Shown: one piece after another, positions 23,489 through 58,148 of the stretch | How positions within the stretch are numbered: position 1 is the stretch's first letter | Layout of the letters: the number at the start of each line of letters is the position of its first letter | Source: a virus | DNA length: 64,000 nt | Direction: 5' to 3' (one strand) | Virus record (IMG/VR): IMGVR_UViG_3300017991_000012 | Span: 16,108 to 80,107 of that record | Notes under the pieces: model-generated | Database searches by the model: none | The model's input: the letters and a program-made list of their open reading frames with translations, nothing else | Told to the model about the DNA's origin: nothing | Made by a program: the position numbers and the translations under genes

Positions 23489-23770
23489 CTAGATCAGCGG
23501 CGGAGTTGCATCTATATCTGCGCCGCCGTACAACAGTCGGTTTGACATGATGAAAACGGCATAGATCGCTGCTAGATGCTTGGCACGCGCCTCCGTCACT
23601 TCTCCGTCAGCAACCTTCTTATCAAGATCATCGTTTCTGTAGCACAGCATTCTGCCGTCGAATATGAAACTCTCGTGCTCCTGCAGCGAGTGTCCGAATG
23701 CTTTATTCAACCGTTCGAGATGCCCAGGCGCCTCTTCGACAGTAGAACTCGTCAGTCCGAATTTGATCAC
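23489..23770 (-). CDS. Hypothetical protein
   Basis: 93 residues, mixed alpha/beta, with AKHLAAIYAVFIMSNRLLYGG as the most hydrophobic part. It overlaps the end of the LamG fibre gene by four bases (ATGA), so it may be a fibre-associated protein or chaperone. No family recognised. Confidence 0.6.
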   Translation of the reverse strand: MIKFGLTSSTVEEAPGHLERLNKAFGHSLQEHESFIFDGRMLCYRNDDLDKKVADGEVTEARAKHLAAIYAVFIMSNRLLYGGADIDATPPLI

Positions 23771-41628: not shown

Positions 41629-42201
41629 TTACCAGAACCATTCCCGGCTGTAGTGATGATAGACGTACAACCCGTCCAGTCTGAGCATTTTGAAGCCGTG
41701 GTTGCGGATCCGCACATGATAGTCGTTATCCACACCCAGGAAGCCATCCTTGAACCCGCCGACCTTGCGCCAGACCATCTTATTCGTCAGCATGAAGAAC
41801 CCGCTGCCCAGATCCTTCCCCATATCCGTGATGTCCGTCACCTGCACGCCGTTCTCGTCCCACAGCTTCTTCGCGAACTGCCGGTGTTCTTCGATGTCAT
41901 TCGACTCAGGCGCATCCGGATGCTTCTGCTCTGTGCGTCCGATCCTATTCGTCCAGCACGTTATCCATCCAGCCTCGTTGCCATGGAACCTTATTGCGTC
42001 CAGGCAGATCTCGTACCAATTCGGATTGCAGAGAAATACATCCTGATCCAGGAACAGCACCCAATCGTCTGCGTTCTCCATGTATCGATTGTATGCCTGG
42101 CCGACCTCGCCTCCAGGCTCGTATGGGATGTTGGTGTCGATGAACAGACCGTCGTCTATCTTGTGCTCGGCCAGCTTCTGCAGGTTGTCTTTGTGGTTCA
42201 T
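41629..42201 (-). CDS. GT-A fold glycosyltransferase
   Basis: 190 residues. DDWVLFLDQDVFLCNPNWY carries the DxD metal/nucleotide-sugar motif of GT-A enzymes, and SGFFMLTNKMVWRKVGGF followed by GVDNDYHVRI is the acceptor-side motif of GT2-like families. The protein is short and seems to lack the first nucleotide-binding strand, so it may be truncated at the N-terminus or act with a partner. GAGGATACT precedes the ATG. Last gene of the glycan island. Confidence 0.7.
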   Translation of the reverse strand: MNHKDNLQKLAEHKIDDGLFIDTNIPYEPGGEVGQAYNRYMENADDWVLFLDQDVFLCNPNWYEICLDAIRFHGNEAGWITCWTNRIGRTEQKHPDAPESNDIEEHRQFAKKLWDENGVQVTDITDMGKDLGSGFFMLTNKMVWRKVGGFKDGFLGVDNDYHVRIRNHGFKMLRLDGLYVYHHYSREWFW

Positions 42202-42806
42202 AGTATCCTCGCTTTGATTTCGAATTCACCAGCCAGCGGCGGTAGAAACTCACCATCTTGCTTCGGCCCATTCGCCGGATCGTGGAACACGGTATCGATC
42301 GGCGCATCCTCGAATACGACCTCCGCATGTGCTGTGTTCATGATCGGCTTCAGCTTGCTGATTTCGACCTTGTGCTGAACCCCGCTCTTTTTCATCGCAC
42401 GCAGTACGTCATCGACCAATACCGGCGCCGTGTGTCCGGTCCATTTCGTCCAGGCGAACCGCAGCCCGAACTCCACCAGCCGCAGCTCGTCATCGCTGAA
42501 GTTCGGTATCCTGATCCAGACCATGTTCGTCGACGCACGCATCATGTTCTCGACAATCTGTCTTGCGTCATCGACGCTCGGAACATGCTCCAGAAAATGG
42601 AACGCCAGGTACGTGCTGGCTTCGATCAGATCCGTCTGTCCATCCACCGGGCAGCAGAGAAAATGATAGCCCTTGTGCTGAATGGTCTGCTCGTACTCAC
42701 GCTTGCAGTCTATTGCCAGACAGGCCTCAGGCGAGTAGCCAAACTGCTTGCACGCCATATCCATCGCGTTGCCGTTTTTGCATCCAAGATCCACTGCGCT
42801 CAGCAT
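42198..42806 (-). CDS. SAM-dependent methyltransferase-like protein
   Basis: 202 residues. MLSAVDLGCKNGNAMD is the SAM-binding motif I of a class I methyltransferase, with CLAIDCKREYE as motif II and LAFHFLEHVP as the post-strand-4 motif. The C-terminal half lacks further recognisable motifs. It overlaps the previous and next genes by a few bases. Substrate unknown, probably a sugar in this setting. Confidence 0.65.
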   Translation of the reverse strand: MLSAVDLGCKNGNAMDMACKQFGYSPEACLAIDCKREYEQTIQHKGYHFLCCPVDGQTDLIEASTYLAFHFLEHVPSVDDARQIVENMMRASTNMVWIRIPNFSDDELRLVEFGLRFAWTKWTGHTAPVLVDDVLRAMKKSGVQHKVEISKLKPIMNTAHAEVVFEDAPIDTVFHDPANGPKQDGEFLPPLAGEFEIKARIL

Positions 42807-43378
42807 TGCACGACCTCCGGATTGACAATCACCTCATCGTGTCCAAAGTCTGCGAGACCGAATCTCGCATCCTGCTTACCCTTCCACGCGATCACGCCAA
42901 GACTGATTGGTTCTACATCCGTTGGATAGCCGTGCTCGAACACCTCGACCTTGAACCACGGCTGAATCTCCATCAGATTCCTGAGCTTGGTCGCGTCGTA
43001 CAGCGCCTTGTGTAGCTGCTGATCTGAGTAGCGCATGTGCTTCTTGGCCAGCCCGTGCGTGGCCAGGAATACGTTCTGTAGTGGCATCATGCCGCCGAGA
43101 TATAGCGCTGCCACGTGCTTGAAGTTCGGAATTCCGGCAAGCACCAGTCTCCCACACGCGCCCAGAGCCTGATAGCAGCTGCCGACAAAACCAACGGCTT
43201 TGCTGTCCGTCAGGTGTTCCAGGAAAGCATAGCCGAAGATCGCGCTCGCACTGCCCTTCTGTACAAATCCCAGCACATCACTGCAGTCAGCCACCAGATC
43301 AGCTGCGTCGGTCGGTCTGATGTCGACGTTCATAAAGCCAGCAATCGGCCTGTTTCCGCATCCGACGTTGATCTTCAT
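42800..43378 (-). CDS. SAM-dependent methyltransferase, type 11-like
   Basis: 192 residues. MKINVGCGNRPIAGFMNVD is the motif I plus N-V-D of glycan-associated methyltransferases; FGYAFLEHL and GRLVLAGIPNFKH complete the fold. The same family is common in O-antigen and capsule clusters. GGAGAGCAAGG precedes the ATG, which overlaps the preceding stop (ATGA). Confidence 0.75.
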   Translation of the reverse strand: MKINVGCGNRPIAGFMNVDIRPTDAADLVADCSDVLGFVQKGSASAIFGYAFLEHLTDSKAVGFVGSCYQALGACGRLVLAGIPNFKHVAALYLGGMMPLQNVFLATHGLAKKHMRYSDQQLHKALYDATKLRNLMEIQPWFKVEVFEHGYPTDVEPISLGVIAWKGKQDARFGLADFGHDEVIVNPEVVQC

Positions 43379-44076
43379 CCTTGCTCTCCGAACATGTTGA
43401 CCAGCTTCAGCTTATCCCAATCCATATTGGGATCGCGGAACATGCCCCGGCTTTTGAATCCTGCGTAGCCGTCCCACATGCTGCCGCAGTCGATCATCGT
43501 GATCTTGTCACCAATCAGCGGCCACAGCCTGTGCTGCAGGACATTGGTCATCATGCTGCTGCTGAACAGGATCACCTCGCACCACTTGCACGCATCCAGT
43601 ACTCGCTTGAACACGCCATCGACCTTCTTGAAGCAGTCGACCTTCGGCACGTCAATCAGCTGCTCGAACTCCAGGCTGCTGGTTCCAAGATGCATCGGCC
43701 CGACCACGAGCACGCGCTTGGTTTTCAGCGCCTTGACGAACGGCCACAGCCTGCCCTTGATATTCGCCTTATGCAGGCAGTCGCTGTCGTACCACGCCCT
43801 GTCGATCTTGTTCACTGCAAGGTAATCCATCAGTGCAACATTCAGATCCTTCACGGCCTTGCGCTGCATGCCCCAGATCACGCCATCGTCGCTGCATACA
43901 GCCTCTTCAAGCGCCAGCTTCAACTCCGGCATGTACTGGTGGCCATCACAGTTCTTTCCGCCGTATCCAAGAATGCACCGCCACTCGCCGTCTCCGTACC
44001 GGACAAACGTAAACGGCTTCCCTTTCTCCAGCTTTTTCACCAGCTCCAGCACATTCAAACTGTTCACCTGTACCAT
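43375..44076 (-). CDS. GT-D type glycosyltransferase (DUF1792-like)
   Basis: 233 residues. PFTFVRYGDGEWRCILG near the N-terminus is the R-x-G-D-G-E signature of the GT-D fold, and VLVVGPMHLG with later EVILFSSSM and ITMIDCGSMWDGY follow the Rossmann-like order. GT-D enzymes add glucose in serine-rich adhesin glycosylation in streptococci; the donor here is unknown. AAAAGGACTGACG precedes the ATG. Confidence 0.7.
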   Translation of the reverse strand: MVQVNSLNVLELVKKLEKGKPFTFVRYGDGEWRCILGYGGKNCDGHQYMPELKLALEEAVCSDDGVIWGMQRKAVKDLNVALMDYLAVNKIDRAWYDSDCLHKANIKGRLWPFVKALKTKRVLVVGPMHLGTSSLEFEQLIDVPKVDCFKKVDGVFKRVLDACKWCEVILFSSSMMTNVLQHRLWPLIGDKITMIDCGSMWDGYAGFKSRGMFRDPNMDWDKLKLVNMFGEQG

Positions 44077-44078
44077 CG

Positions 44079-44582
44079 TCAGTCCTTTTTATACCAAGGC
44101 TTGAACGCCAGCATCTTTTCAATTTCTGGAAATTGACCAGTGAACATCTGGCAGCGATCATCCAGTGAGTAGAAAGCTGGTGGTTTCGCACGCGGGAATT
44201 GGATCTTGTCCACGATCAGCCTTGCAGCATACCGAACCTCATCCGTCCACTGATCGGCAAAGGCCGTCTCGGCGATGATGCTACGCCACCACTCTGGCGT
44301 CTCGTCGTATTCACACGCATAGTCGCAGTACCACTTGAGCAACCAGGTCCTCATGGCCCAGCGCCCAAACAAGAACTTGCTTCTGCTGCTATAGATCGCT
44401 GGCTGCACATATGGCGATCTTGCAAGCATAGCAAGCCATTCGAGTGCGCCAGCAACCGGAATATCTGGTATCGTCCGCGGTCCCTGCCATCCGCTGGTGT
44501 AGCTATGGATCACGCCGTCGAAGTCAATGCAAATGATCGGCGTGAACTTGGGCACCTCCTGTCCTTTGTTTTCGTTCACCAT
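44079..44582 (-). CDS. HAD-superfamily phosphatase-like protein
   Basis: 167 residues. ICIDFDGVIHSYTSGW is HAD motif I (DxD), IYSSRS supplies the motif II Ser, and FYSLDDRC the motif IV Asp pair. Length and lack of a cap domain suggest a small phosphatase or nucleotidase; in a glycan cluster it may process sugar phosphates. GGAGGCCGGGCG precedes the ATG. Confidence 0.7.
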   Translation of the reverse strand: MVNENKGQEVPKFTPIICIDFDGVIHSYTSGWQGPRTIPDIPVAGALEWLAMLARSPYVQPAIYSSRSKFLFGRWAMRTWLLKWYCDYACEYDETPEWWRSIIAETAFADQWTDEVRYAARLIVDKIQFPRAKPPAFYSLDDRCQMFTGQFPEIEKMLAFKPWYKKD

Positions 44583-44594
44583 CGCCCGGCCTCC

Positions 44595-45437
44595 TCAGTC
44601 CTCGATCAGTATGTCCAAGATGTTTGCACGCTCCTCAATCTTGATAGCGTCCACGACCTCAAGCGTGTCGCAGCTGATCTTGAATATCGCAATCTGCCTG
44701 GGCCAACTACGCTCGTTGCGCTTCCCCCTGTGGCTCCCCCCAACATAGAAATGGTCCTTGTACTCGACCAGTCCGCGAAGGTATCGTCCCTCCAGATCTA
44801 TCTTGCGATATACCTCACCTGTATCCCTCTTCTGACACACCATTTGACCAGTTCCACTGCTGAGCGAAAACATATCGTTTCCGCGCACAAGAACGTTATG
44901 CCCGCGATCTCCAACGTCGCGATATATTCGCCAGATCTTGATCTCTCCAGCAAGCAGTCTTGGTAAATCGAGTACGGCAATGAAGCTCGGCCCGTGGTTG
45001 TGGCAGTACACATACAGCCCTTCCTCCCAAATGCACATGCTGTTGATGTGGTTCACGTCCTGTGCTTTGCCGCCTGGAATTCCGAAGTCGATCTTGATCT
45101 TCTCGTGCTTTCCATTCTGAACGTCGGTCAACACAATCTCATTGCTGACGCTGGCGGTAGTCAGAATGTACGGCCCATAGCTGATGATCTGGTGCGCTCC
45201 CTGGCAGGCAGCTATCGTCAACTTGTTGCACAGCGCCATGGTCTTGTCCAGGAACAGCAGCAGCGTCGGGTCTTCCGGATTCTCACCCTGGCGCTTGGCA
45301 AATACGTACATCCCCTCGTACCTGGCAATGCCATAGATGCAATCTTCATTCGGCACCTGGCCTTTGTCGATCACAAAGTCTCGATCGTCCTCGCGAACAT
45401 AGCAGTCAGTCAGCGTGCTGTACAACAGTCTCATCAT
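44595..45437 (-). CDS. Beta-propeller-like protein
   Basis: 280 residues. Recurrent strands of the type GIARYEGMYVFAKRQG, HINSMCIWEEGLYVYCHNHG and LRGLVEYKDHFYVGGSHRG at roughly regular spacing indicate a propeller resembling DUF4915/NHL-type proteins of glycan clusters. No enzyme motif is assured. The start overlaps the preceding methyltransferase by 32 bases. Confidence 0.55.
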   Translation of the reverse strand: MMRLLYSTLTDCYVREDDRDFVIDKGQVPNEDCIYGIARYEGMYVFAKRQGENPEDPTLLLFLDKTMALCNKLTIAACQGAHQIISYGPYILTTASVSNEIVLTDVQNGKHEKIKIDFGIPGGKAQDVNHINSMCIWEEGLYVYCHNHGPSFIAVLDLPRLLAGEIKIWRIYRDVGDRGHNVLVRGNDMFSLSSGTGQMVCQKRDTGEVYRKIDLEGRYLRGLVEYKDHFYVGGSHRGKRNERSWPRQIAIFKISCDTLEVVDAIKIEERANILDILIED

Positions 45438-46053
45438 CGGCCTTCCATATCATCCAGCTTGGATTCGTCCACCCGCGTACAGGATCTTCCGTCACGTGAA
45501 AGCAGTCATGCAGGCCGTGCCTGTCTACAAACTCATTAACGGCCTGGATCACGCCGCACGTGCCCTTGACTTTGTAGTCATGGCCGGCGAGTATGCCGCC
45601 TTTCTTCACCAGTGGCCAGTACAGCGCAATGTCCTTCTTGATGCCATCGTACCTGTGATCGGCATCGATGTAGATGAAGTCAAACGACAGGCTTTCAAAC
45701 TCCATCCACGCCTGGTCGCTCCTGGCCTTGATCAACCGCGCATGCGTTGTCTCTTTCATCTTGGCAATTACATCGCAGCACATCTTCCACCTCTCGTCTC
45801 CGCTGCTGTAATGCAGGTCTTCGAAGATGTCGATTCCGATCAGTTCATCAGCCTCAGCCGCGCCAAGCAACGCCAGGCCCTCGCCCTTCCATACCCCGAC
45901 TTCCATCAACCTGCCATTCAATCCGGCCTCGCGCAGTAACTGCGGAATGTCCTTCCGATACTTGCAGGCCTTCATCAACTGCACTACTCGCGGCTGCCCC
46001 TCATCGGTCTTGGCGCGACGATCGACTTCGGCAGCTTTCTCCTGCTGTGCCAT
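45406..46053 (-). CDS. Class I SAM methyltransferase (Methyltransf_24-like)
   Basis: 215 residues starting MAQQEKAAEVDRRAK. LMEVGVWKGEGLALLG is motif I, LIGIDIFEDLHYSS motif II and FDFIYIDADHRYDGIKKDI the catalytic-region motif of the O-methyltransferase group often found with glycan genes. AAGGATCAAAGT sets the start at 46053. It overlaps the preceding glycosyltransferase by 70 bases. Confidence 0.75.
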   Translation of the reverse strand: MAQQEKAAEVDRRAKTDEGQPRVVQLMKACKYRKDIPQLLREAGLNGRLMEVGVWKGEGLALLGAAEADELIGIDIFEDLHYSSGDERWKMCCDVIAKMKETTHARLIKARSDQAWMEFESLSFDFIYIDADHRYDGIKKDIALYWPLVKKGGILAGHDYKVKGTCGVIQAVNEFVDRHGLHDCFHVTEDPVRGWTNPSWMIWKADDETVVQHAD

Positions 46054-46640
46054 ACTTTGATCCTTCCATGCCAATACTGCCATTTGTCCCTGAAATTCCA
46101 GCTCGCAGGCAGGACGAACGGATTGAACTCCATCTCGAATATCGCCCTCGACAGGTGCGGCTGGTCATTGGTCTCGCCACCAACGTGCTCCTCGCACAGT
46201 TCCTTCCATCTATTGAACACGCACTCGCTGTACTTGTGGTCGAAGAAGATCACGCCCGTATTGTACTGAATCCAGTCCTGGTGATCCTGCCATCCAGGCA
46301 CGCTCGCCAGGTCATAGAACGGTGCGATCGTCAGCGCCATCCCATGCAGTTCGGCCATTTTGAATCCGAAGCACAGTTCGTCACAGACAATCGTGTCGCT
46401 GTCGAGAAAGCACGTCAGATCAAACGGCGCCAGTCGGTAGATGTTGCTTGCCTTGTTCAGATGCACGCGCTGGCGATCGATCATCGTATAATGCACGACA
46501 TCGAATTCCGGCCAGCTCACTTCCTCATCAGTCAGCAGCACCGTCTGGTAGCCGTATTTCTTCGCGCTTGCCGCCGATCGCCTGGCCTCAGCCAGCGACT
46601 TCTCGCCCCAGGCGTTGTAGACTATTCCTCTTGTGGGCAT
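45984..46640 (-). CDS. GT-A glycosyltransferase, GT8-like
   Basis: 218 residues. GIVYNAWGEKSLAEARRSA at the N-terminus, YRLAPFDLTCFLDSDTIVC with the DxD motif, and QYNTGVIFFDHKYSE with an N-T-G acceptor motif match the GT8/GT77 type layout. KVWHSRRKL near the end may provide the H-x-x-x donor-binding position. GAGGTACATCT precedes the ATG. Confidence 0.7.
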   Translation of the reverse strand: MPTRGIVYNAWGEKSLAEARRSAASAKKYGYQTVLLTDEEVSWPEFDVVHYTMIDRQRVHLNKASNIYRLAPFDLTCFLDSDTIVCDELCFGFKMAELHGMALTIAPFYDLASVPGWQDHQDWIQYNTGVIFFDHKYSECVFNRWKELCEEHVGGETNDQPHLSRAIFEMEFNPFVLPASWNFRDKWQYWHGRIKVWHSRRKLPKSIVAPRPMRGSRE

Positions 46641-47401
46641 AGATGTACCTCGCTCACATGCAAGCGCTTCAGCTCATCGCGCCTGGCCGCGTACGTATTC
46701 AAATCAAGCCTGCGCCGTTCAAGGTACAGCGCCTGCGCCCGTTCTTCCGTCAGATGGTCCTTGAACGTCACCGCCCTATGGCTGTCGACAAAGACGTTCA
46801 GCATCGGCGCCCGCTCAAAGCAGGCCATGCGCGTGACCTGGTCTTTGAACATCCGCATTCCAGCGACCTCGATCTGGTTCGGCGTCCTGGCCATCGGGCA
46901 GTGGTTCAGGACCTGGATGATCGTGCTCATGCGATAGACCGTGCTGCTTACCTCCCAGCAGTACCCCCAGCTGTGACGATGGTCGAACAGGCTTGGGTTG
47001 TAACGGATGATCCCGCTCTCGTTTTCGAGTACCTGGCCGCGGATGCCGTTCTGCAGCCGGAGGCTGAAGCCAAAGGTCTCATGCTCTTTGATGCAGCTGC
47101 GCACGACCCATTCGTCCACATCCCGCGTGCACAGGTTATCGTCCACAGACAGAATCCCGACATCGCCATTGATATGCGCCCAGGTGCGCACGTGGTCGAC
47201 AAGACTCTTGACCGGCTGGTCCCGGTCCTGATCGATGAATAGTGCCTGCTTGTACTTCTGCTCCAGCTCCCGGTAGCTGTCCACGTATTCGTCCGATGCC
47301 GAATACAGGACCATGACGTCAAACGGCTGCCCTCTCAGGCTCTCCAGGTAATTCCAAACCCAAAACGGACGGTTCTTGCTGAACATCAGCATCGGTATCA
47401 T
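46622..47401 (-). CDS. GT2-like glycosyltransferase
   Basis: 259 residues starting MIPMLMFSKNRPFWVWNYL. FDVMVLYSASDEY and VGILSVDDNLCTRDVDEWV supply the nucleotide-binding and DxD-like (VDDN) motifs. No membrane anchor. The ATG overlaps the stop of the methyltransferase gene before it (ATGA). Substrate unknown. Confidence 0.6.
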   Translation of the reverse strand: MIPMLMFSKNRPFWVWNYLESLRGQPFDVMVLYSASDEYVDSYRELEQKYKQALFIDQDRDQPVKSLVDHVRTWAHINGDVGILSVDDNLCTRDVDEWVVRSCIKEHETFGFSLRLQNGIRGQVLENESGIIRYNPSLFDHRHSWGYCWEVSSTVYRMSTIIQVLNHCPMARTPNQIEVAGMRMFKDQVTRMACFERAPMLNVFVDSHRAVTFKDHLTEERAQALYLERRRLDLNTYAARRDELKRLHVSEVHLCPQEE

Positions 47402-47970
47402 CTGACAGCCCTCACGCCTATCGTCGGATACTGGTGCTCGATACCTTCCCATTTGTCGATCTGGCTGAAGCCAATCGCCTTCAGCACTTCTTCCATCATC
47501 TCGAACGTCCAGCCCCACTTGTGCACCGAGTATTGATCGCGTCCGCTGCAGTAGACATAGCGCATCGCCAGTTCATCCTTGCCTTCCTCAATCATCTTTG
47601 CGCTTGCCAGCACGTCCGGAAAGTCCAGAAGCAGCTGCCCCTTCTCGATCAGGTTCTCCCAGCAGCGCTTCAGGATGTCGATCGCCTCGTGCCTGAAGAA
47701 ATGCTCGATGCCCTGAACCATGACAATCTGCTCGTACGGTCCATCCTCGGTCGGGAAGAACAGCCTCAGATCCATCGGTCGATCCACAAGTCTCAGCTGA
47801 CGCATCGGCACGTTGCCGAACTCGAACTTGTAGTAATTGCCTAGCGTGGTCTTCATCTGCTCCACCAGTTCCGGATTGTGACATGCGTACTTTGTCTTGC
47901 CATCGATGTAGATGTCGACGTTCACATACCCATCCAGGTAGACGTTCCCGCAGCACAGGTGCAGCTTCAT
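47398..47970 (-). CDS. SAM-dependent methyltransferase, type 11-like
   Basis: 190 residues. MKLHLCCGNVYLDGYVNVD is the same motif I variant as the gene at 42800 (G-x-x-x-N-V-D), with IVMVQGIEHFFRHEA and GQLLLDFPDVLASA further on. GGAGATAGG precedes the ATG. The two copies in one island point to methylation of more than one sugar position or substrate. Confidence 0.75.
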   Translation of the reverse strand: MKLHLCCGNVYLDGYVNVDIYIDGKTKYACHNPELVEQMKTTLGNYYKFEFGNVPMRQLRLVDRPMDLRLFFPTEDGPYEQIVMVQGIEHFFRHEAIDILKRCWENLIEKGQLLLDFPDVLASAKMIEEGKDELAMRYVYCSGRDQYSVHKWGWTFEMMEEVLKAIGFSQIDKWEGIEHQYPTIGVRAVR

Positions 47971-47971
47971 C

Positions 47972-48655
47972 CTATCTCCTTGTCGCGACGATCAGATGCC
48001 GCTTGATGTCGAATATCCTTTGCAGAAAATACTCCTGAATCTCGACATACTTCAGCCTCTGTTTCCAGGCCACGTAGTTGAACGACAGCTGATCGCGTAT
48101 GCTGCCGTTCTCGATTTCTTTCCACCAGCCTTCCATCGCCTTCTTTACGTCCGGCTCATTGTGCCTGCGCACGAGCACGCCCGTCATCGACAGTCCGATT
48201 CCTTCCGGATAGCCGTCGGCCCGGTATCGTTTGATCTGCTGCTCCATGGTCTTGAGATCGTCTTTCTTCAGCCGCTTGCACGCCTTGTATTCCTGGTAGA
48301 TGCACTTGCGGCCTTCCGGATGCGCGAACATCGCCATATTCGCATACCTCAGCCAGCGCTTAATCAGAGGCTTGATCTGCACCCTGATGTCGATATTGCC
48401 ATCGATCCAGACGCTGACCTCGTACTCCGGCAATATCTTGTGCGGATGCAGCTTATGCCACCTCGCCTCGCGGCTCATCGTCCTCTGCACCTCGACTTTG
48501 CGCCAGGCCTGGAAGTCGCTTATCCCACCACAGTCTCGATCGCTGAAAATGAAGTAGTCGATGCCGTCCTCGTAACTGCTCAGCGGCTGGACCTCGTCCT
48601 TGCCGCCGGTCACGCACGTATAGACCGCGATCTTAGGCGAACTTGATTTTCGGGA
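47972..48655 (-). CDS. DUF616-type glycosyltransferase
   Basis: 227 residues from a GTG start with GGAGAAACAGCG upstream, overlapping the preceding gene by 22 bases. IAVYTCVTGGKDEVQPL, RWHKLHPHKILPEYEVSVW and IDGNIDIRV are the conserved blocks of the DUF616 family (TOD1-like glycosyltransferases), with DGN in place of DxD. AMFAHPEGRKCIYQE also fits. An enzymatic role in glycan building is likely. Confidence 0.7.
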   Translation of the reverse strand, partial: SRKSSSPKIAVYTCVTGGKDEVQPLSSYEDGIDYFIFSDRDCGGISDFQAWRKVEVQRTMSREARWHKLHPHKILPEYEVSVWIDGNIDIRVQIKPLIKRWLRYANMAMFAHPEGRKCIYQEYKACKRLKKDDLKTMEQQIKRYRADGYPEGIGLSMTGVLVRRHNEPDVKKAMEGWWKEIENGSIRDQLSFNYVAWKQRLKYVEIQEYFLQRIFDIKRHLIVATRR

Positions 48656-51600
48656 CACCGCTGTTTCTCCGTCGCATCTGATTGTGGCAGATTTCAAACT
48701 CGGCCTTGTCCGCATCGCTGTCCATCGGCCTGTCTGCCACGTACACGATCTCATTGATCATGCGCCCGACTTCTCCAGCATCGATCATGCTTTTCACCCA
48801 TTGCCACTCCGCGAACCTCGCCACATTTTCAAACTCGACAAAGCACCCGCTCTTGACCAGAAACACTTCGCCGATGTGATTCAAGCGCATTGTCCATTCC
48901 GGATCCATCTCGGTCGTGAACACAACACGATTGGCAAGAACATGATGACCGTAGGCAAACGCCACGTCCTTGTTGTCTCTCAGTTTGTCACGCAAGGCTC
49001 TCACGCCCCCGCGGTCGAGCCTGACATCGCCTGGGCAGAAGAGCACGTATTTGCCTCTCGTAGCCTGGAATCCATCGTTCCATGCCACGCCCTTCCTGCA
49101 GCCAACCGGGACCTCCACCCGCTTCAGCCTGGGAAACAGGTCGTGGCCAATATCCGTCCCCTCCTCCACCACCAGCACAAGCTCCTGAATATCGTGCGGC
49201 ACCGTTGCCGCTATCATGTTCGCCTGCTGCGCATCGCGAATCGGGCCGGCAACGACACTCACGCTTCCCTGCAGCAGATCGCTGCACATTTCCCAGACCT
49301 TCGGCAGCGTCTCCTCCAAAATGTTCTCGTGGAACTTCGGCCGTTGTCTCTGTATCAGCCTCCGCCTCTCCTCATTGTCCGGCAGATAGCGTTCGATCAA
49401 GACCTTCAGCGCTTTCGGACAGTCGAATACCGGCATGTCCGGGAACCAGCGCTTCAGTTCCGCCCTCGTGTTGTCCACCAGCTGAAAGGCCCTGCAGGCC
49501 ACCAGTTCAAAGCAGCGTGGATTTACGTGGGATCCCACGTGGTCGGTCTTGTTGAACCTGCTTTTTTGTACAGTGCAATCATCCCGGTGGATGTTGATGT
49601 TGATCTTCGCCCCGCAGTAGTACTTGATCGCTTCCTCGTTTGGAATCCTGCCCGGTATGATCTTCGCATGCTCGTACCCAAGCCTGCGGAAATCCCAGCC
49701 TATGAGCGTCGTCCCAGGCTTGTCCAGGAACTCTCGCAGCTCCGTAAAGTACTCGATTCTGCGCTTGAATCCCGTCGGGTCCATGCCGCCGATGAAGCAC
49801 ACGTCGCTTGCGTATTCCTTCCCGACCTGCAGCTTCTTGTGCTTCTCGCTATTGGCCGTCAGAGGATAGTAGATGGTGTTCGGAAACCTGCTCACGCAGT
49901 TCTTCTCGTTCGTCAGCCGCAACGTAGCCCTTGCTGCCACAGCGTCGTACCATCCCGTCTCGTACGGCTCATCGGCCAAGACCATGACCGTCGCGCATCC
50001 GCTGGCATGGATGCTGTCGAACACCTCCTGCGTCGGATGCTCCATGTCGAATTTCTGATACCTCGTCTGCGGGCAGAAGAACGCGGCGTCGAAATTCCCA
50101 AGTTGATCCTCTCGTCCAGTGAGGCCCTGGTCACCATCAAATGCCACGACCTCCACACCGTTCTTCTGAAGTCCGATTCTGATTCCGTCAAACGCATGCT
50201 GCACCGCACACTCTCTGTTCGGCCCGAACAGCGCCACGCGTTTCTGTTCGTCATTCACGCGCTCGACCCTTTCCCTCCTTTGCTTTTTGCTCAGCTTCCC
50301 GCCGATATAGCTTGCTGGCTTCCTGGGCCTGATGATCTTGTGCTCAGGCAGCGGCTGGCCTTCCCAGTATTTCTTGATCTCCGGCAGCTTCAGCTCCTGC
50401 GGGCTGACGTCTGCCGTCGACGTACCCGCTATCTTCGACCAGTACGGGCTGTACAGATCGATGTCCGCAGTGCGGCAATACTGCTCCAGCTTCTTCCTCT
50501 TGTGCTGCAGTATTTCGGCCACCGCCTGCTGATTGCCCCTGCCGACAGGCCTGTCGTCTCCAACTGCCTGTTTGCCATTTGCAAACAGCTCGAAGTCGAA
50601 TCCGACCAGCAACGCACTCCTGAATCCCATCCATCTCGCGACTTGCAAGGCCAAGATCGCGCTCCCGCTATCCGTGTGGAAGCCCTGTCTCGGATCGTGT
50701 CCCTTGGCCTTGATCGATGCCCCGCTTGCGAACAGGCAGAACCCGCCGTATTTCTTTGCCCCATCGAATTGATCGACCCCGACACCCTTTGGCGCAATCA
50801 CATATCCGCCGCTTTTGCCGAACTCGATCACGCGTTTCAGCAGTGGCCTGCTCCGGCTGATATGTCGCTTGCGGCTTATGATGCAGTAATCGGCATCACC
50901 GTGGAAAATCGCGCTGTTGACAGCAAACACAGGTCCGATCTTCCACAGCTCCTGCTTGTCCACCTTGCACCCGCCAGGTCCTGGGCCGAGAATCACGCAG
51001 GTGCCGTTTTCCACCTGCCGCAGGCTGTCTGTTGATACCGCCCCCACGGGTCCAGAATCGGCCTGTACGGGCTTTTCATCCTGCGCCTGTTGTCTGGGTA
51101 TCTTTTGTGCCTTTGCGGCCTGTACGGGCGCCTGTGGCGTGCGAGACTGCCGTTTATCGATCATTCTCGGACCCTTGAACACAACCTCGCTTTCCGTCAC
51201 CTTCTCCAGGTCTCGAAGCTGGCCGAACCGGCTCAGGTCGTAGACCTCGCATCCTGCGTCCCTGAGTGCCACAAATGCCAGGCTAAACCAGCTCAGCGTC
51301 TGGACATAGCGATTGTTGCCGCTGTCCAAATACCAACTGTCACCGCTTTGCTCCGGCCTGCTTCCCGCGTACTTCTTTCCATTTGGCGCCAGGCAGAAGT
51401 CAATGCCAACGAGGTAGATCCTTGTCGCGCCAAGCACATACGCCATATGCAGCGCTCCGAACGGGCTGCAATAGCCTACCGCGCACTTGTTGTCGTACGC
51501 CTCTCGCGTCATCGGAAACACGCCCTTGGCATTCAGGTCCAGATCCACCCACCAATCGGCATTGACTTGATTCTGGTTGAATGAAGCTGTAACCCATGGT

Positions 51601-51866
51601 ATGCCAAGCTGATCTGGGTCCTTTACGGCATCCCCCCACCTGAACGGCTTGCGTTCGATGTTGTACATCAAGCTCGGCCTGAAGCACTGCGCGACGGTGT
51701 TCACGCCAACGCTCAGCGGGAATCGTTCATAGAACTTGGCAGGATAGTTGTCGATCGACGGCCCGTTACCGGCCACCAGAGCCGTGCAGCCCATGCACGA
51801 CCCTACGAGGCCGCTGTCTTTGAATTGTTGCACAGTCTCCCCCCCATCGGCTACCCACTGTCGCAC
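48633..51866 (-). CDS. Giant multidomain glycosyltransferase
   Basis: 1077 residues. Four parts can be seen: a DUF115-like (MptE-like) domain at about 25-225 (ALVAGNGPSIDNY, ATRIYLVGIDFCL); a second such domain at about 288-480 (CVILGPGPGGCKV, FRSALLVGFDFEL); a CgeB-like GT-B domain at about 545-860 (RVALFGPNRECAV, INIHRDD, NPRCFELVACRAFQLV); and a GT2-like domain at about 865-1060 (SVVAGPIRDAQQANM, GKYVLFCPGDVRLD). Linkers are Gln/Pro/Ala-rich. The start is a GTG with a weak site; the next good ATG is at residue 25. Likely builds a glycan on a virion or host target. Confidence 0.75.
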   Translation of the reverse strand: MRQWVADGGETVQQFKDSGLVGSCMGCTALVAGNGPSIDNYPAKFYERFPLSVGVNTVAQCFRPSLMYNIERKPFRWGDAVKDPDQLGIPWVTASFNQNQVNADWWVDLDLNAKGVFPMTREAYDNKCAVGYCSPFGALHMAYVLGATRIYLVGIDFCLAPNGKKYAGSRPEQSGDSWYLDSGNNRYVQTLSWFSLAFVALRDAGCEVYDLSRFGQLRDLEKVTESEVVFKGPRMIDKRQSRTPQAPVQAAKAQKIPRQQAQDEKPVQADSGPVGAVSTDSLRQVENGTCVILGPGPGGCKVDKQELWKIGPVFAVNSAIFHGDADYCIISRKRHISRSRPLLKRVIEFGKSGGYVIAPKGVGVDQFDGAKKYGGFCLFASGASIKAKGHDPRQGFHTDSGSAILALQVARWMGFRSALLVGFDFELFANGKQAVGDDRPVGRGNQQAVAEILQHKRKKLEQYCRTADIDLYSPYWSKIAGTSTADVSPQELKLPEIKKYWEGQPLPEHKIIRPRKPASYIGGKLSKKQRRERVERVNDEQKRVALFGPNRECAVQHAFDGIRIGLQKNGVEVVAFDGDQGLTGREDQLGNFDAAFFCPQTRYQKFDMEHPTQEVFDSIHASGCATVMVLADEPYETGWYDAVAARATLRLTNEKNCVSRFPNTIYYPLTANSEKHKKLQVGKEYASDVCFIGGMDPTGFKRRIEYFTELREFLDKPGTTLIGWDFRRLGYEHAKIIPGRIPNEEAIKYYCGAKININIHRDDCTVQKSRFNKTDHVGSHVNPRCFELVACRAFQLVDNTRAELKRWFPDMPVFDCPKALKVLIERYLPDNEERRRLIQRQRPKFHENILEETLPKVWEMCSDLLQGSVSVVAGPIRDAQQANMIAATVPHDIQELVLVVEEGTDIGHDLFPRLKRVEVPVGCRKGVAWNDGFQATRGKYVLFCPGDVRLDRGGVRALRDKLRDNKDVAFAYGHHVLANRVVFTTEMDPEWTMRLNHIGEVFLVKSGCFVEFENVARFAEWQWVKSMIDAGEVGRMINEIVYVADRPMDSDADKAEFEICHNQMRRRNSGVPKIKFA

Positions 51867-51874
51867 TTCGCCCG

Positions 51875-54800
51875 TCAGGCTATCGCAGGCTGCAAGACTT
51901 CCTGCAGTATTGCATCCTGGAACACGTCCTCCATGATCAGAGTCTCGCTCGCGCCCTCGAAATTCCAGTTGATATTGCCGCCCTCGTCCACCGAGTTTGT
52001 GGCCTGAACTTGACTCGCACTCCCACTCGCGTCACTGTTCTTTGCAGTGACATAGTTGGCCGTGTTTGTTCCCGCCACATCCCAATACCAGACTCCGCTT
52101 GGATTGATCGGCAGCAGGTTGCCCACCTGGCCGTTCAGCGCACCGTTGCCGCCGACCGTGAATCTCGTGCCCACGAGACCAGTCAGTCCAAGACGGCCGC
52201 CGTCTTCCACGGAAAATCCTGCGGCCGTGATCACGTCCTGGCCGTTCGTATCAAGCGTGCCGCCATTCACGGTCATCCCTACGCAGTTTAGATCATCCTG
52301 AAGCTGCTTCGTGGCTCCTGAGTCATCGATCGTCGTGTGCTCGATCGTCTGACCGTCGGTCGTGATCGACTGCGTACCACTGCCCGCCCCAGATGCCTTC
52401 CATGATCCAGAACCATTCGTGTAGTTCACGTTTCCATGAATGTAGAAATCATCGGCAAACGTTACGATGCCATCAGGACCGACCACATTCAGAGTTGCGG
52501 TGGCCCCAGCCCTGAGCCTGATATTTCCGCCAACGGTCCAGTTTCCTGATCCGAAAGTGAAGTTGACTGTCACACTCGCGGCAGTGAGCACGTCCAGAAT
52601 ACCGGTCAACGTCACGTCTGGATTGTTCGTATCAAAGTCGACATCACCCCTGACAACATCGAGGTACGCTGATGTGAACCCGTTCGCGTCGAATACCTTT
52701 GTCGCGCCATCGTCATCTACCTGGATGCCCTCGACGCTCTTGCCAAGCAGCGCGATGGTCTGACTCCCACTTCCTGCTCCGGACAGCTTTATGTATCCGC
52801 TGCCCTTTGTCCACGTCAGCGTGCCACCACCACTTTCTGTAATGGTTACATTATCCTGGAAAACATAGTCAGGATTGTATGTCGCGTTTTCGATCGTGTA
52901 CGCGCCACTGGCAGTGTCATGGTCAAAGGTCACGGGACCACTGAACGTGAACGTCTGGCTTGCCGCTGTGCCCATGGTCACTGTGTTCGTGCTCGTATTA
53001 TCCTGCTCGAACAGCCATGTTCCGCCGTAAGTCGCACCAATGAGTTGCGCCCCACGTTGTACATAGGTATTCGTAACGCTCCACGTACCGTCTTGTTTGT
53101 CGATACTGGCCCCATCTTTGATCGTGATAGATCCAGCACCCGTCAATGTGCCAGTGTTTTCGATTTCGACCGCACCCGCCGCCGTGTCGAAAGTCCAAGA
53201 ACCTGTCATGGTCAATGTTCCGGTCACGTTCAACGTTCCCTTGTTCACGCCGCTTCCGGTCTTTTCGATCGTGCCTGTGATATTTACGTTGGCAATCGCG
53301 TTCGATTCTGCGGAAGGAAGCGCAAGAGTCTTACTTGTGCCTGACATGGTCAATGTCGAATTCCCGCGGGTCAACGTATCCACACCCGACAGATCGACAT
53401 CACCAGCACAATTGTATGTGGACGAACCAGCCACAAAGGTCAAAGCACCGGCCCCGCTTGACTGCATGGTCAGATTGCCGTTGAAGTTCAGCGTCGGGTT
53501 GTTCGTTGCCGCCGTGACGATGTACGCTCCTGCGCCCGTCGTGTCGATGGTCACATTGCCGCTGAACGTGTAGGTTCCTGCCGCCCAAGTGAATGTCTTT
53601 GGAGAACCTCCCGTGTTCCTGATCGTCACAGTTGCAGAGCCATACGTTGCCGGAACAATATCCGCGTTGTGATCTTCTTGCAGATCCAATGATGCAATAT
53701 CAAGAGTCCCGTCCTGCTGACTGATACTGGCACTTGTGCCAATGAGTAGCGAACCGTCACCTGTGAGAGATGCGCCGGTATTGATCTGCAAATCTGCGCT
53801 CGCGCCTGTGACTCTTATTGCTCTACCAGATGCGGCAGTAAATGTCTTGTTGGCATTGACAATCAGATTTCCGTTGACGATCAAAGCCGATTCGCCGTTG
53901 GCAACGGAAATCGTGCCGTCAATCGTCAGGTTGTTGAAGCCCTCATCCCAATATGTTTCTTTTACGGTCTTGCCCGTACCGTTCAAAACAACCGTGCTTG
54001 CGTCTGCGCTCCAACCCCCGCTGATTCCGTCATGACTCCAATTGCCGCTGCAAGTCCAAGTGCCATTGCCAAGCGACAAATCAATATCGCCTGTCCCGTC
54101 CGTGAAAGTCACATCAGACGCGAGATTGACAGTCGGGTTGTTGGCTGAGAAATCAACAGTCCAGGTAAAGGCTGTGTCCGTAGTGAACGTGACCGCACCA
54201 GAGAAAGCAATTGTGCCAGCCGCCGCCGTCAATGTGTCAATGCCGCCCCTACTGTTTTTCAGTGTGACCGAAGCGCTTGCAATCGTACCCGCCGCCAGCG
54301 TGTGCGCAGTCAGATAGTAGGCAATCGTCAACGGACTCACACTGACTGTGCCACCAGAGGCAACAGTCAATGGTGTAGTCACATATCCGTTCAGATTCCA
54401 TGTGCCTGAACCATTGATTGTTCCAGTTGCCCCAACATCCCAATCGCACCGCGTGGTCAATGTCTGGTTGATCGTCAGCGTTCCATTGATTGTCATGACC
54501 GCCGCGCTTGTATCCCATTCTAATGTCCCGTTTCCGGAATCAAGTGTCAGACTTCCAGAGGCTTCAATGGTCAGGTTGTTTTTCATCTGAATGCGCTTAG
54601 ATGCATCTGCGCTTGACCATGTAACCGAAGCGGTTGACTTGATCGTAAGATTGTAGATTGGTTGTGCGTCTGGCGTTTTGAGCGCCTTGCTTGCGCCTGA
54701 CATTTCGATTGTGCTTGTATCGTCATTGAAAGTTGTCACATCTTCGCAATCAAAATCACCCGAACAAGTCCAGGTTCCAGACCCCATATCAACCCGTGTG

Positions 54801-55915
54801 CAATCCATCGTGCAATTGCCGTTGATCGTCAAAGACGGATTGTTTGTTGCGCAATCCCATGTACCCGCCGTGAGCGTCAGGCTGTCGGTCGTGAATCCGC
54901 TTGCATCAATTGTTTTCGTCGCGCCCGAATCATTCATTGTCAGATCTTCGATCGTCTTGCCATCGAAGTCGATCGTTTGTGTTCCAGATCCCGCGCCCGA
55001 AAGCGTGATTGATCCCGTTCCTTTCGTCCAGGTGAGCGTACCCGCGCCAGCATCCGAAAACGTTACATTGCCTTCGAAAATGTAATTCGTGTTATTTACC
55101 GAATTATCAATCGTAAAATTTCCGCTGCTTTCAAGCGAAAAGGTAAACGTACCACCAATCCGATATGTTCCAGCCTGCATAGTATTAGTAAAATTCGATC
55201 CGCTTGTGCTTCTTACTCGAACCGCACAGTCATAATATGCCGGTACGCAATCATCAAAATAATAGTCTGCAAACAGCGTCCCGCTAGGATTCCATGTTCC
55301 ATCCATTTGGGAAATTGATCCACCAGAACCCATGATAATACCGCCGCTGCCATTCCATGTACCTGTGCCGGTTACTTGAATATCACCAGCCGTTTGAATT
55401 GTAATGTTTGAGTTGTTCGTGAATGTACCACTTACAACTAATGGCCCCCTCACTCCGGCAGTTGAGCTACCTCTAGTAATCGTCCCACTAATCGTCAAGC
55501 CATATAAATCTTTTCCCTGCGTTATCGTCTTAGTTGTGCCATCCATAACCAAAGTTGATGTAGCGTATGTGAATGTGGTTTGGTCATAGTTATCAAAGTT
55601 ACCGCTTACGGTAAACGTGCAGTCGCCCATGTCGATTTCACCACTGCCATCGAAGTCAACGTCCCCAGCGCATTGGTGGGCGTATGCTGAATCACCGAAG
55701 TCCAACTTGCCATCGTAGGTACTCTGCACATCTATGCTGGCCACGTCGATCGCCACGTCACAGGTGCAGTTCTGCGTGGTGTACTGATCATCAAAGATCA
55801 CGGCGTCAGATGAAGTTGGGACGCCCGCGCCGCCCGCGCCGCCAGAACTTGACGCCCAATTGCTTGCATCATTCCAATCGCCGTCGGTATCGCCGACCCA
55901 ATAGCGGTCTGCCAT
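51875..55915 (-). CDS. Very large beta-solenoid virion protein
   Basis: 1346 residues, the largest gene. The N-terminus RYWVGDTDGDWNDASNWAS followed by V-P-T-S-S-D is the opening of a repeat-rich extracellular beta family. Nearly all the rest is Thr/Ser/Gly/Asn-rich beta rungs with long internal repeats: WTKGTGSITLSGAGSGTQT near residue 300, WTKGSGYIKLSGAGSGSQT near 1050 and a shorter version near 1200. No membrane or signal segment. It is expected to be a long surface fibre or decoration, and its many Thr/Ser residues could be glycan acceptors for the island next to it. Confidence 0.7.
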   Translation of the reverse strand: MADRYWVGDTDGDWNDASNWASSSGGAGGAGVPTSSDAVIFDDQYTTQNCTCDVAIDVASIDVQSTYDGKLDFGDSAYAHQCAGDVDFDGSGEIDMGDCTFTVSGNFDNYDQTTFTYATSTLVMDGTTKTITQGKDLYGLTISGTITRGSSTAGVRGPLVVSGTFTNNSNITIQTAGDIQVTGTGTWNGSGGIIMGSGGSISQMDGTWNPSGTLFADYYFDDCVPAYYDCAVRVRSTSGSNFTNTMQAGTYRIGGTFTFSLESSGNFTIDNSVNNTNYIFEGNVTFSDAGAGTLTWTKGTGSITLSGAGSGTQTIDFDGKTIEDLTMNDSGATKTIDASGFTTDSLTLTAGTWDCATNNPSLTINGNCTMDCTRVDMGSGTWTCSGDFDCEDVTTFNDDTSTIEMSGASKALKTPDAQPIYNLTIKSTASVTWSSADASKRIQMKNNLTIEASGSLTLDSGNGTLEWDTSAAVMTINGTLTINQTLTTRCDWDVGATGTINGSGTWNLNGYVTTPLTVASGGTVSVSPLTIAYYLTAHTLAAGTIASASVTLKNSRGGIDTLTAAAGTIAFSGAVTFTTDTAFTWTVDFSANNPTVNLASDVTFTDGTGDIDLSLGNGTWTCSGNWSHDGISGGWSADASTVVLNGTGKTVKETYWDEGFNNLTIDGTISVANGESALIVNGNLIVNANKTFTAASGRAIRVTGASADLQINTGASLTGDGSLLIGTSASISQQDGTLDIASLDLQEDHNADIVPATYGSATVTIRNTGGSPKTFTWAAGTYTFSGNVTIDTTGAGAYIVTAATNNPTLNFNGNLTMQSSGAGALTFVAGSSTYNCAGDVDLSGVDTLTRGNSTLTMSGTSKTLALPSAESNAIANVNITGTIEKTGSGVNKGTLNVTGTLTMTGSWTFDTAAGAVEIENTGTLTGAGSITIKDGASIDKQDGTWSVTNTYVQRGAQLIGATYGGTWLFEQDNTSTNTVTMGTAASQTFTFSGPVTFDHDTASGAYTIENATYNPDYVFQDNVTITESGGGTLTWTKGSGYIKLSGAGSGSQTIALLGKSVEGIQVDDDGATKVFDANGFTSAYLDVVRGDVDFDTNNPDVTLTGILDVLTAASVTVNFTFGSGNWTVGGNIRLRAGATATLNVVGPDGIVTFADDFYIHGNVNYTNGSGSWKASGAGSGTQSITTDGQTIEHTTIDDSGATKQLQDDLNCVGMTVNGGTLDTNGQDVITAAGFSVEDGGRLGLTGLVGTRFTVGGNGALNGQVGNLLPINPSGVWYWDVAGTNTANYVTAKNSDASGSASQVQATNSVDEGGNINWNFEGASETLIMEDVFQDAILQEVLQPAIA

Positions 55916-55929
55916 TTATTTGCCCTCTG

Positions 55930-56220
55930 TTAGTTGCTCAGGACACCAACGATCGAGCCACTGCCAAAGCCACCGTCCTTCACGCCAAACCGGACGAGAA
56001 TCTGGCTTTCCTTGCCGATGTTGCCGACCTTCGCCGTGTTGGCTGTGTAGCTGTCGATGTCGGCCCACGTGGTTCCCTGATCGAAAGACCACTGGACAAA
56101 GACCGTTCCCGTCCAGCTACCGCTGAGGCTGAAGTTGAACTTGTCTCTGGCGCTCAGCGGATCAGACCAGGTCCTGTGAGCCGTGATCGTAGCAGTGACG
56201 ATCGTATTCTGAACGGTCAT
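55930..56220 (-). CDS. Small beta-sandwich virion protein
   Basis: 96 residues starting MTVQNTIVTATITAHRTW. FNFSLSGSWTGTVFVQWSF and DQGTTWADIDSYTAN resemble a small jelly-roll or Ig-like unit found in phage head decoration proteins. GGAGGACTGAG precedes the ATG. It follows the connector gene directly. Exact role unknown. Confidence 0.6.
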   Translation of the reverse strand: MTVQNTIVTATITAHRTWSDPLSARDKFNFSLSGSWTGTVFVQWSFDQGTTWADIDSYTANTAKVGNIGKESQILVRFGVKDGGFGSGSIVGVLSN

Positions 56221-56221
56221 C

Positions 56222-56737
56222 TCAGTCCTCCATCTCATAGCTTCCAATGCACAGCCATCCGCTCTCCAGCAGCAGGTTGTACGCGACATTGCTCTGCAGA
56301 ATCACGTCTGGATTCTTGGTCGTCTTTATGCCCTTCGTCTGCTCGTGGCTTACCACGCGCTCGATGTTCCAGTTCTGTCTATGTGCACAGGCGATCGCCT
56401 CTTCGCATTGGGCCACCTTGATCTGCCATACGTCGTCGACAGTTACCTCGTAGTCGTCCGCTTCTTCGTACGCATCTCGGAAGCCGCTTTTGGCCGTGGC
56501 CATTCTCGGCCACTCCATCGCCTGATCGGTTTCATATTTGCTGCCCGCAAACTTGACCTGCTCGATATGAGAGGCCGCCAGCACCAGCAGCGCCGCCTTT
56601 TGTCCATCGGTCATCGCATCCCACTCGGTTGTGGCTGGGAAGAAATTCGGACTGCGTTCATCAGCAATGTAGGCATCGACCTCCGCCACAGTGACGTAGC
56701 TGTTCGTGCCTACGGTTACAGATGGCATGAGACTCAT
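56222..56737 (-). CDS. Head-tail connector-type protein (DnaT-like domain)
   Basis: 171 residues starting MSLMPSVTVGTNSYVTVAE. VDAYIADERSPNFFP, GQKAALLVLAASHIEQ and AMEWPRMATAKSG match the phage adaptor family often labelled DnaT-like ssDNA-binding, found just after the capsid gene. GAGGAGGTGTGGCG sets the ATG at 56737. Confidence 0.7.
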   Translation of the reverse strand: MSLMPSVTVGTNSYVTVAEVDAYIADERSPNFFPATTEWDAMTDGQKAALLVLAASHIEQVKFAGSKYETDQAMEWPRMATAKSGFRDAYEEADDYEVTVDDVWQIKVAQCEEAIACAHRQNWNIERVVSHEQTKGIKTTKNPDVILQSNVAYNLLLESGWLCIGSYEMED

Positions 56738-56751
56738 CGCCACACCTCCTC

Positions 56752-56828: not shown

Positions 56829-58148
56829 TTAGTAATCGACCGCGATTCCCAGCCGGCCATAGGTCTGGCCATCCGCGTACACCTGGCGGAATGCCGTGCG
56901 CTGCGTTGCCACCAGCTTGATCTGATCGGTCTCGATGTCCTCATCGGACTTGATCGTCACATTGCGCCGGTTGCCGCGCAGCCACGTGCGGCGGTTGATC
57001 AAGGCAATGCTGGTCTTGGTCGACGCCGGGCTGGACGTGTCGTACACGCCTGCGGTATCCTGGTTGCTGGCCATCTTGCCCGTAACCACAACCTTTCCAC
57101 CGAAGAGCATGCCGACCTCGCCCTTCTCGATCGTCGCCCCAGCACCGTACTTGTCGACCGTCAGGAACTCGGTCAGGGTGCGGATCTTGTGCAGGCCCTT
57201 GGCATTGCACAGCCAGATCAGATCCTCTGGCATCGAGCCGTAGGCGCCGCACTCGGCGATCATCCGGCTGAGGTTCGCAGCACTGAACGTCGCAAGCGAC
57301 GTTGTCAGGCTGTTCGCCAGCAGCTCCTTGCGGATGCCGTCATACGCATACCGCGCATCGGACACACCGCCTGAACTCGGCCAGGTCTCACCAGGATCGA
57401 CGTCCGCACCGCTATGCGGCGAGGTCGTGTCTCCGTTGACCATCGCGTTCTCGTCGGCCTCTGCCAGCGCACGAGCGATCTCGGACCTTGCTCTTGCGAG
57501 CACGTCGATCACCGTGTCCTCTGTCAGCTCGGTCGACATGATGATCCTCGCGCCAAGCTTCCTGGCCGTCAGCGTTGCCTTGCCGTCGGTCAGGACCGTG
57601 GCAGTAGGCTTCGTGCCACTGTCATCGGTCGACTCGTCGACCAAATAACCGGTCGCGCTTCCAGCCAGCACTGGAGGATCGTAGACCTTCGTCGGCATGT
57701 TCATCTCTTCGAAGAGAGCGCCGACAAGCAGGTTGTACCTGATCATGTCGATCAGGGTGCCGCTCATCTCCGTCGGAACCCAGTTCGACGTGTCGGTCGT
57801 GTCCATCGCGGCCTTGCGCACTTTGTCCCACGACTTCCGTGCAACGAACCGGCGCAACATCTCCGGCCCCTTGATGACGCGCAACAGATATGCCGCGTCA
57901 TTGAAGTCATGGCACTTGCGGATGAAGTGCAGGCGGTTTTCACTCTCGCCGCCGTAACCTTCAACCGGGTCCTTCAGGCTCTTAACGATCTGGACCCTTG
58001 CCAGATCATCGCCGACAACGACCGTGCCATCGTTCATCCCGCCACGCTTCCCCGCCTCTTCTTCGCGCACTTCCTTGCGGATCTTTTCACGCTCAACCTT
58101 CTTGCGGGCTGAGCCAAGCGCTGCCTGCAGCTCTTCAACCTTACCCAT
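56829..58148 (-). CDS. Major capsid protein, HK97 fold
   Basis: 439 residues. A charged coiled-coil N-terminus of about 45 residues, then NWVPTEMSGTLIDMIRYN, a variable region, DEMVNGD-like ENAMVNGDTTSPHSGAD, WLCNAKGLHKIRTL and VGMLFGGKVVVTGKM, and the RTWLRGNRRNVTIKSDEDI C-terminal strands characterise the HK97 family. The first residues may be a scaffold-like delta domain removed by the protease. AAGGAGATAGCG precedes the ATG. Confidence 0.85.
   Translation of the reverse strand: MGKVEELQAALGSARKKVEREKIRKEVREEEAGKRGGMNDGTVVVGDDLARVQIVKSLKDPVEGYGGESENRLHFIRKCHDFNDAAYLLRVIKGPEMLRRFVARKSWDKVRKAAMDTTDTSNWVPTEMSGTLIDMIRYNLLVGALFEEMNMPTKVYDPPVLAGSATGYLVDESTDDSGTKPTATVLTDGKATLTARKLGARIIMSTELTEDTVIDVLARARSEIARALAEADENAMVNGDTTSPHSGADVDPGETWPSSGGVSDARYAYDGIRKELLANSLTTSLATFSAANLSRMIAECGAYGSMPEDLIWLCNAKGLHKIRTLTEFLTVDKYGAGATIEKGEVGMLFGGKVVVTGKMASNQDTAGVYDTSSPASTKTSIALINRRTWLRGNRRNVTIKSDEDIETDQIKLVATQRTAFRQVYADGQTYGRLGIAVDY

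Follow-up and report, generated by a model that had tools for sequence, protein, structure and literature searches.

What is a long run of glycan-modifying genes doing among the structural genes of a phage? The question arises in the window, by which we mean the whole 64,000-nucleotide stretch analysed here, bases 16108-80107 of the 80,107-base record of an uncultured tailed phage. Nearly all genes of the window are carried on the minus strand, with a head block (portal, head morphogenesis, protease and HK97-type capsid) at its high end and the tail genes at lower coordinates. The island, at 41629-51866, sits between the two on the same strand (Table 1). Our results suggest that it is probably a virion-glycosylation cassette which uses host donors and whose sugars are capped by methyl groups. 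From position only, we infer that the island is expressed late. A terminator-like hairpin of 12 pairs (56788-56760) separates the capsid gene from the connector gene and, if real, would reduce expression of the island relative to the capsid; a consensus scan found no internal promoters on the coding strand of the island and one promoter-like site just past it (41621-41593). Neither the hairpin nor this site is evidence of function. In the tail region, a 720-aa protein (23767-25929) has two laminin-G/concanavalin-like lectin domains and is a candidate glycan-binding receptor protein.

Table 1. Features of the window that are discussed in the text
Feature	Coordinates	Strand	Basis or remark
Portal	61750-63180		window high end, among head genes
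HK97-type major capsid protein (MCP)	56829-58148	minus	Pfam 3e-16, PHROG 4e-21
Head-tail connector-like gene	56222-56743	minus	56% orthologue in L089
1346-aa Ser/Thr-rich protein, adjoins island	51875-55915	minus	absent at site in L089
g1, 1077-aa multi-domain glycosyltransferase	48633-51866	minus	Pfam, PHROG, L089 orthologue
g2, DUF616 / TOD1_MUCI70 glycosyltransferase-like	47972-48658	minus	Pfam above cut-off, PHROG, L089 orthologue
g3, class I SAM methyltransferase	47398-47970	minus	LCCGN..NVDIY motif, 58% L089 orthologue
g4, putative GT-A/GT2-like, 259 aa	46622-47401	minus	motif reading only
g5, putative GT8-like GT-A	45984-46640	minus	FLDSDT, YNTGV motifs and relatives elsewhere
g6, Methyltransf_24-type SAM methyltransferase	45406-45984	minus	Pfam 3e-16, above cut-off
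g7, beta-propeller protein	44595-45434	minus	AlphaFold2, Foldseek
g8, putative HAD-like phosphatase fold protein	44079-44582	minus	DFDGV motif only
g9, GT-D-like glycosyltransferase	43375-44076	minus	RYGDGEW, DxE motif; weak profiles
g10, SAM methyltransferase	42800-43378	minus	NVGCGN..NVDI motif, PHROG methyltransferase 0.002
g11, SAM methyltransferase	42198-42806	minus	motif, fused relatives
g12, GT-A glycosyltransferase (FLDQD)	41629-42201	minus	PHROG, alignment
Tape measure	32610-35408		tail genes occupy lower coordinates
Sulfotransferase (Sulfotransfer_2), outside island	9047-9667	minus	Pfam 2e-9, above cut-off

The island consists of 12 co-directional long open reading frames, which cover 99.9% of its length. 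An earlier, sequence-only reading had recognised the consecutive run but counted eleven genes, although its own list sums to 12. It had also described the genes as all coupled by start/stop overlaps; some junctions do overlap but not all, the extremes being an overlap of 29 nt and a gap of 12 nt. Two starts were revised, that of g4 to 47401 (not 47518), which overlaps g3 by 4 bases, and that of g2 to near 48658, picked by alignment; g1 may start at a GTG (51866) or an ATG (51794), and g6 likewise at 45984 (GTG) or 45975 (ATG). The longest frame, of 1077 aa, is far longer than any open frame in 50 shuffled copies of these bases, where the maximum was 285 aa. Third-position GC of the island genes (0.64-0.78) is inside the range of the structural genes, and a recent foreign origin of the island is therefore unsupported. 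Six glycosyltransferase proteins, with approximately nine glycosyltransferase domains between them, and four SAM methyltransferases are found in this one contiguous co-directional run, together with a putative HAD-like protein and a beta-propeller.

Several of these family labels rest on weak profiles or motifs and should be regarded as predictions. Among the families named from sequence, those of g2, g6 and the CgeB-like part of g1 exceed the Pfam cut-offs, while the MptE/DUF115 and GT2 parts of g1, as well as g9 and g12, are below the cut-offs but consistent with the proposed families. The methyltransferase labels of g3, g10 and g11 come from a motif plus relatives, that of g5 from a motif plus distant relatives, and those of g4 and g8 from a motif only. 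The g1 protein has two putative MptE/DUF115-like domains (27.7 bits, below the Pfam cut-off of 34.6) followed by a CgeB/GT-B domain (residues 722-846; Glyco_trans_1_2, 4e-13, above the curated cut-off) and a GT2-like domain (about 890-1000); its PHROG match is sialyltransferase-like (1e-5), and an AlphaFold2 model of the tandem N-terminal DUF115 part reached a pLDDT of only 32. Antisense to g1 there is a 783-aa open frame on the plus strand (48684-51035), which most likely reflects GC bias at third positions and not a gene. The g2 protein matches TOD1_MUCI70/DUF616 in Pfam (3e-16; 60.3 bits against a cut-off of 21.4) and a glycosyltransferase in PHROG (1e-24), and g3 is weakly related by BLAST to the g10-type methyltransferase.

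For g12, there were PHROG glycosyltransferase matches of 6e-16 and 4e-12, with the Pfam GT2 families below cut-off. The g9 protein matched the Pfam GT-D-like family at 2e-4 (below cut-off) and, in a profile search of the PDB, DUF1792 and GalT1 structures at 0.0035-0.01; its DxE motif is present and the G-D/N-G-E-W residues are invariant. Similar PDB profile searches with g1, g3, g7, g8 and g12 returned nothing useful, and direct tblastn searches of named phages with g9 and g5 gave no match. The assignments of g4, g5 and g8 are weak. There was no match for g4 in Pfam, PHROG or NCBIfam nor for g5 in the family libraries; distant relatives of g5 sit in other glycan cassettes (L067, L076, L147 and L155). 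The g8 protein lacks Pfam and PDB matches, and its PHROG match (8e-19) is to a family of unknown function; in other phages its relatives are not part of glycan clusters, and a role in glycan metabolism is unproven. For g7, the propeller label comes from structure: the AlphaFold2 model (pLDDT 79.5) matched propellers in Foldseek, and relatives occur in phage S-SCSM1 and eight viral contigs, within cyanophage-type sugar clusters and with a DUF616 gene nearby in seven of the eight contigs.

Members of the island families recur together in unrelated phages and are at times fused. A g2 relative was present in 32 of 66 loci found with g9 and in 7 of 8 found with g7; another island family was present in 41 of the 66 g9-seeded loci and 21 of the 40 seeded with g12. 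Fusions join g2 to g12 (phi12:1 and L014), g11 to g9 (L014 and L073), g2 to g6 (L067) and DUF616 to GT2 (L030), which suggests that these families share one pathway. The sole non-island protein of the window phage to be matched in the g7-, g9- and g12-seeded loci was a sulfotransferase (9047-9667), overlooked in the earlier reading, which could add sulfate to the same glycan. Two huge uncultured phages also carry relatives of this enzyme, and further relatives adjoin some DUF616 loci.

Where do such cassettes lie relative to the capsid genes? Cassettes are found inside the structural block of the window phage, of L089, L030 and L076. The clearest example of an MCP-adjacent arrangement is L030, where the MCP gene is followed by GT2, GT2, GT2::DUF616, a methyltransferase, a TupA-like ATP-grasp enzyme, a further gene and then the next head-tail genes. 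The presence of the TupA-like enzyme (L030 11176-12030) inside this cassette suggests amino-acid conjugation of the glycan. We searched 131 records with a relative of g2, g7, g9 or g12 for an HK97-type capsid (PF05065) and found one in 16, two pairs of capsid-bearing records being near-duplicates. In all 16 a cassette gene shares its strand with the capsid gene at a distance of 1.9-6.6 kb, downstream in 13 and upstream in 3, and by capsid comparison these records and phi12:1 fall into at least five capsid groups. Closeness to the MCP is trivial in short contigs, and the informative records are the six of 27-100 kb, in all of which the gene was within 26% of the record length, counted both ways; a post hoc Fisher combination of the single capsid distances in these six gave 0.09, which is not significant. 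Adjacency to the capsid is thus a consistent pattern and not proof. In records with T4-type capsids, the DUF616 gene was at least 14 kb from the capsid gene in 8 of 8 cases, and the same families may have another job when far from the capsid in T4-like phages.

The phage particle is not the only conceivable target. Phage glycosyltransferases for O-antigen seroconversion are established. The existence of these enzymes (PMC12619734) gives some weight to the view that the island alters host surface glycans late in infection, for superinfection exclusion or easier release, and soluble glycosyltransferases could act on cytoplasmic lipid-linked precursors. We nevertheless consider late remodelling of the host surface, which the earlier reading had offered as an option, to be unlikely. 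A hydropathy scan detected no membrane segment in any of the 12 island proteins, the highest 19-residue values being 0.53-1.45; as no stretch has the strength of a membrane segment, the products should act in the cytoplasm. The hallmark of gtrABC-type seroconversion, a membrane flippase with a lipid-linked membrane glycosyltransferase, is thus absent from these proteins, nor was any partner of flippase-like or lipid-carrier-linked type seen. Remodelling shortly before lysis would, moreover, bring little benefit, and the place beside the capsid gene recurs. Glycosylation of the virion remains the likeliest reading because of this recurrent place beside HK97-type capsid genes and because of the Corndog precedent discussed below.

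A second alternative concerns which protein is modified. The island was previously linked to the adjoining 1346-residue protein as a fibre, and it is conceivable that this protein is a dedicated substrate, either a glycosylated fibre or a head decoration. Its gene is separated from g1 by 8 nt, and the protein has a Ser+Thr content of 24.7% and 33 N-X-S/T sequons. The one close relative found for the window phage, IMGVR_UViG_3300035698_005710 (L009/L089), recovered by a DUF616 profile search, argues against this proposal. The two phages share the order MCP, connector, g1, g2, g3, with identities of 65% for the capsid, 56% for the connector, 42% for g1 (aligned over its full length), 55% for g2, 58% for g3 and 55% for the portal. 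In L089 the connector directly precedes g1, with neither the 1346-residue protein nor the small gene that precedes it between the two. Since L089 keeps g1-g3 without this protein at the site, the front of the island is conserved independently of it, and a protein that is missing there is not an evident substrate; the L089 contig stops after g3, and its phage may carry a copy elsewhere. Synteny in a related phage, which the earlier reading had named as a check, therefore bears out the order of g1-g3 and speaks against the 1346-residue protein. In addition, 50,697 phage records yielded no relative of the protein, so the label of fibre is unproven. We regard a dedicated-substrate role as quite improbable, and capsid-proximal proteins are likelier to be modified. 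Compared with L089, the 1346-aa gene and its small neighbour form an extra block (51875-56220) exactly between connector and g1, which was either inserted here or lost in L089. A gene with a radical-SAM-like CxxxCxxC motif (RGCPNTCWLC) is present in L089 (688-1506), between the left end and the portal, and was not seen at the corresponding place in the window phage. Searches of viral contigs with g1 or the portal as single proteins found no relatives; with a two-sequence capsid profile and with a g1 profile, L089 was the sole match.

The remainder of the genome was scanned with Pfam, covering about 50 proteins outside the island though not every small ORF. In agreement with the earlier reading, there were no nucleotide-sugar enzymes among these ~50 proteins, and the view of the island as a glycan-modifying module within the structural block, without donor synthesis of its own, is supported. 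Outside the window (G000:C1:8616-10064, locus L002), a protein with phage DAM-like and phage GNAT-like domains adjoins a ParB-like gene; the two domains are likely to be a DNA-modification (Mom-like) pair. Although this DNA-modification-type protein and known DNA-glycosylating viral glycosyltransferases (work cited in PMC12619734; Thanatos, PMC12838424) lend something to the idea that the island enzymes decorate phage DNA as hypermodified bases, this is very improbable, as no base-hypermodification family (thymidylate synthase-like, hydroxymethylase or TET-like) was found by Pfam in the ~50 non-island proteins, and the set of methyltransferases and glycosyltransferases and their position in the head operon misfit early DNA modification. 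The same locus encodes a DNA polymerase III beta-clamp-like protein with a cysteine-rich C-terminus (G000:C1:2689-3846); none of the proteins read was recognisable as a DNA polymerase. A portal profile had no match in bacterial and archaeal genomes, and hence we propose no provirus and no host assignment.

How might a virion-glycosylation cassette of this kind work? Bacterial DUF115/Maf proteins glycosylate flagellin in the cytoplasm. Because of this activity, and because g1 heads the conserved part of the island, g1, with two DUF115/Maf-like domains plus GT-B and GT2, would be the natural candidate for the start and first extension of the chain. Expressed from the block of structural genes, the glycosyltransferases would work in the cytoplasm with nucleotide-sugars drawn from the host and would assemble a short glycan on at least one particle protein before lysis, the capsid-proximal ones being likeliest. 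The four methyltransferases would then cap or diversify the sugars. In this scheme we infer enzyme activity, late expression, the substrate protein, the structure of the glycan and its benefit, which may be shielding, adsorption or particle stability.

A broader and more tentative possibility is that, in several capsid lineages, HK97-type tailed phages maintain an exchangeable glycan-modification slot adjacent to the MCP, of which the window phage would be an extreme filling. The slot would draw on a shared set of families (DUF616, GT-D, GT-A, Methyltransf_24 and GT8-like), and its product here might be a long, multiply methylated and perhaps sulfated capsid glycan with DUF115/Maf-like initiation. 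If true, phage particle glycans would be commoner and more complex outside the mycobacteriophages than the few proven cases suggest, and a run of glycosyltransferases and methyltransferases beside an HK97-type capsid gene would be a genomic rule for predicting glycosylated virions. The island would also supply cytoplasmic enzymes of protein glycosylation that are open to test, phage DUF616 proteins among them.

Comparison with known systems places the island among virion-modifying cassettes. The sugar cluster of Synechococcus phage S-SCSM1 resembles it in having, in one run, a DUF616 gene, a relative of the g7 propeller and several glycosyltransferases and methyltransferases. That cluster, however, includes nucleotide-sugar epimerases and an asparagine synthase, and in this T4-like phage it is not beside the capsid gene within the stretch read. 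In chlorovirus PBCV-1, the major capsid protein carries a methylated glycan that viral cytoplasmic glycosyltransferases and a methyltransferase (A064R and others) produce (PMC7019647), but this is a eukaryotic virus with unrelated genes at dispersed loci and with some donor sugars made by the virus. Cellulophaga phage phi12:1 is closer: gp39-gp40, a Methyltransf_24 gene followed by a DUF616::GT-A fusion, represent the families of g6, g2 and g12 and lie in the head genes, between head morphogenesis and protease. Unlike the island, this is no more than a gene pair, it lies upstream of both protease and capsid, and its function is predicted.

The closest precedent in organisation is the cluster O mycobacteriophage Corndog, in which an O-methyltransferase, two glycosyltransferases and a putative N-acetylglucosaminyltransferase are encoded between portal and protease (PMC4351075). 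Infected cells contained the proteins of this cassette but virions did not, and the yield of capsid peptides was surprisingly low (PMC4351075). According to two later papers, capsid and tail tube are modified by Corndog-type enzymes (PMC11600133, PMC12363180, citing Freeman et al. 2023). JangDynasty, of the same cluster, has the gene order of Corndog, portal-cassette-protease-capsid. As in these phages, the island is a co-directional run of methyltransferase and glycosyltransferase genes within the structural block, and overlapping genes are found there too. In contrast, there are four genes in the Corndog type and twelve here, and the cassette occupies the portal-protease interval there and the head-tail interval here. 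The Corndog-type cassette showed no DUF115, DUF616, GT-D, propeller or HAD-like gene, and neither BLAST nor phmmer matched the island genes to JangDynasty genes 33-36. The island therefore shares the logic and place of the Corndog type with different genes. As smaller cassettes are known or visible in other phages, the island is best read as a virion-glycosylation cassette of unusual size, and not as a new system.
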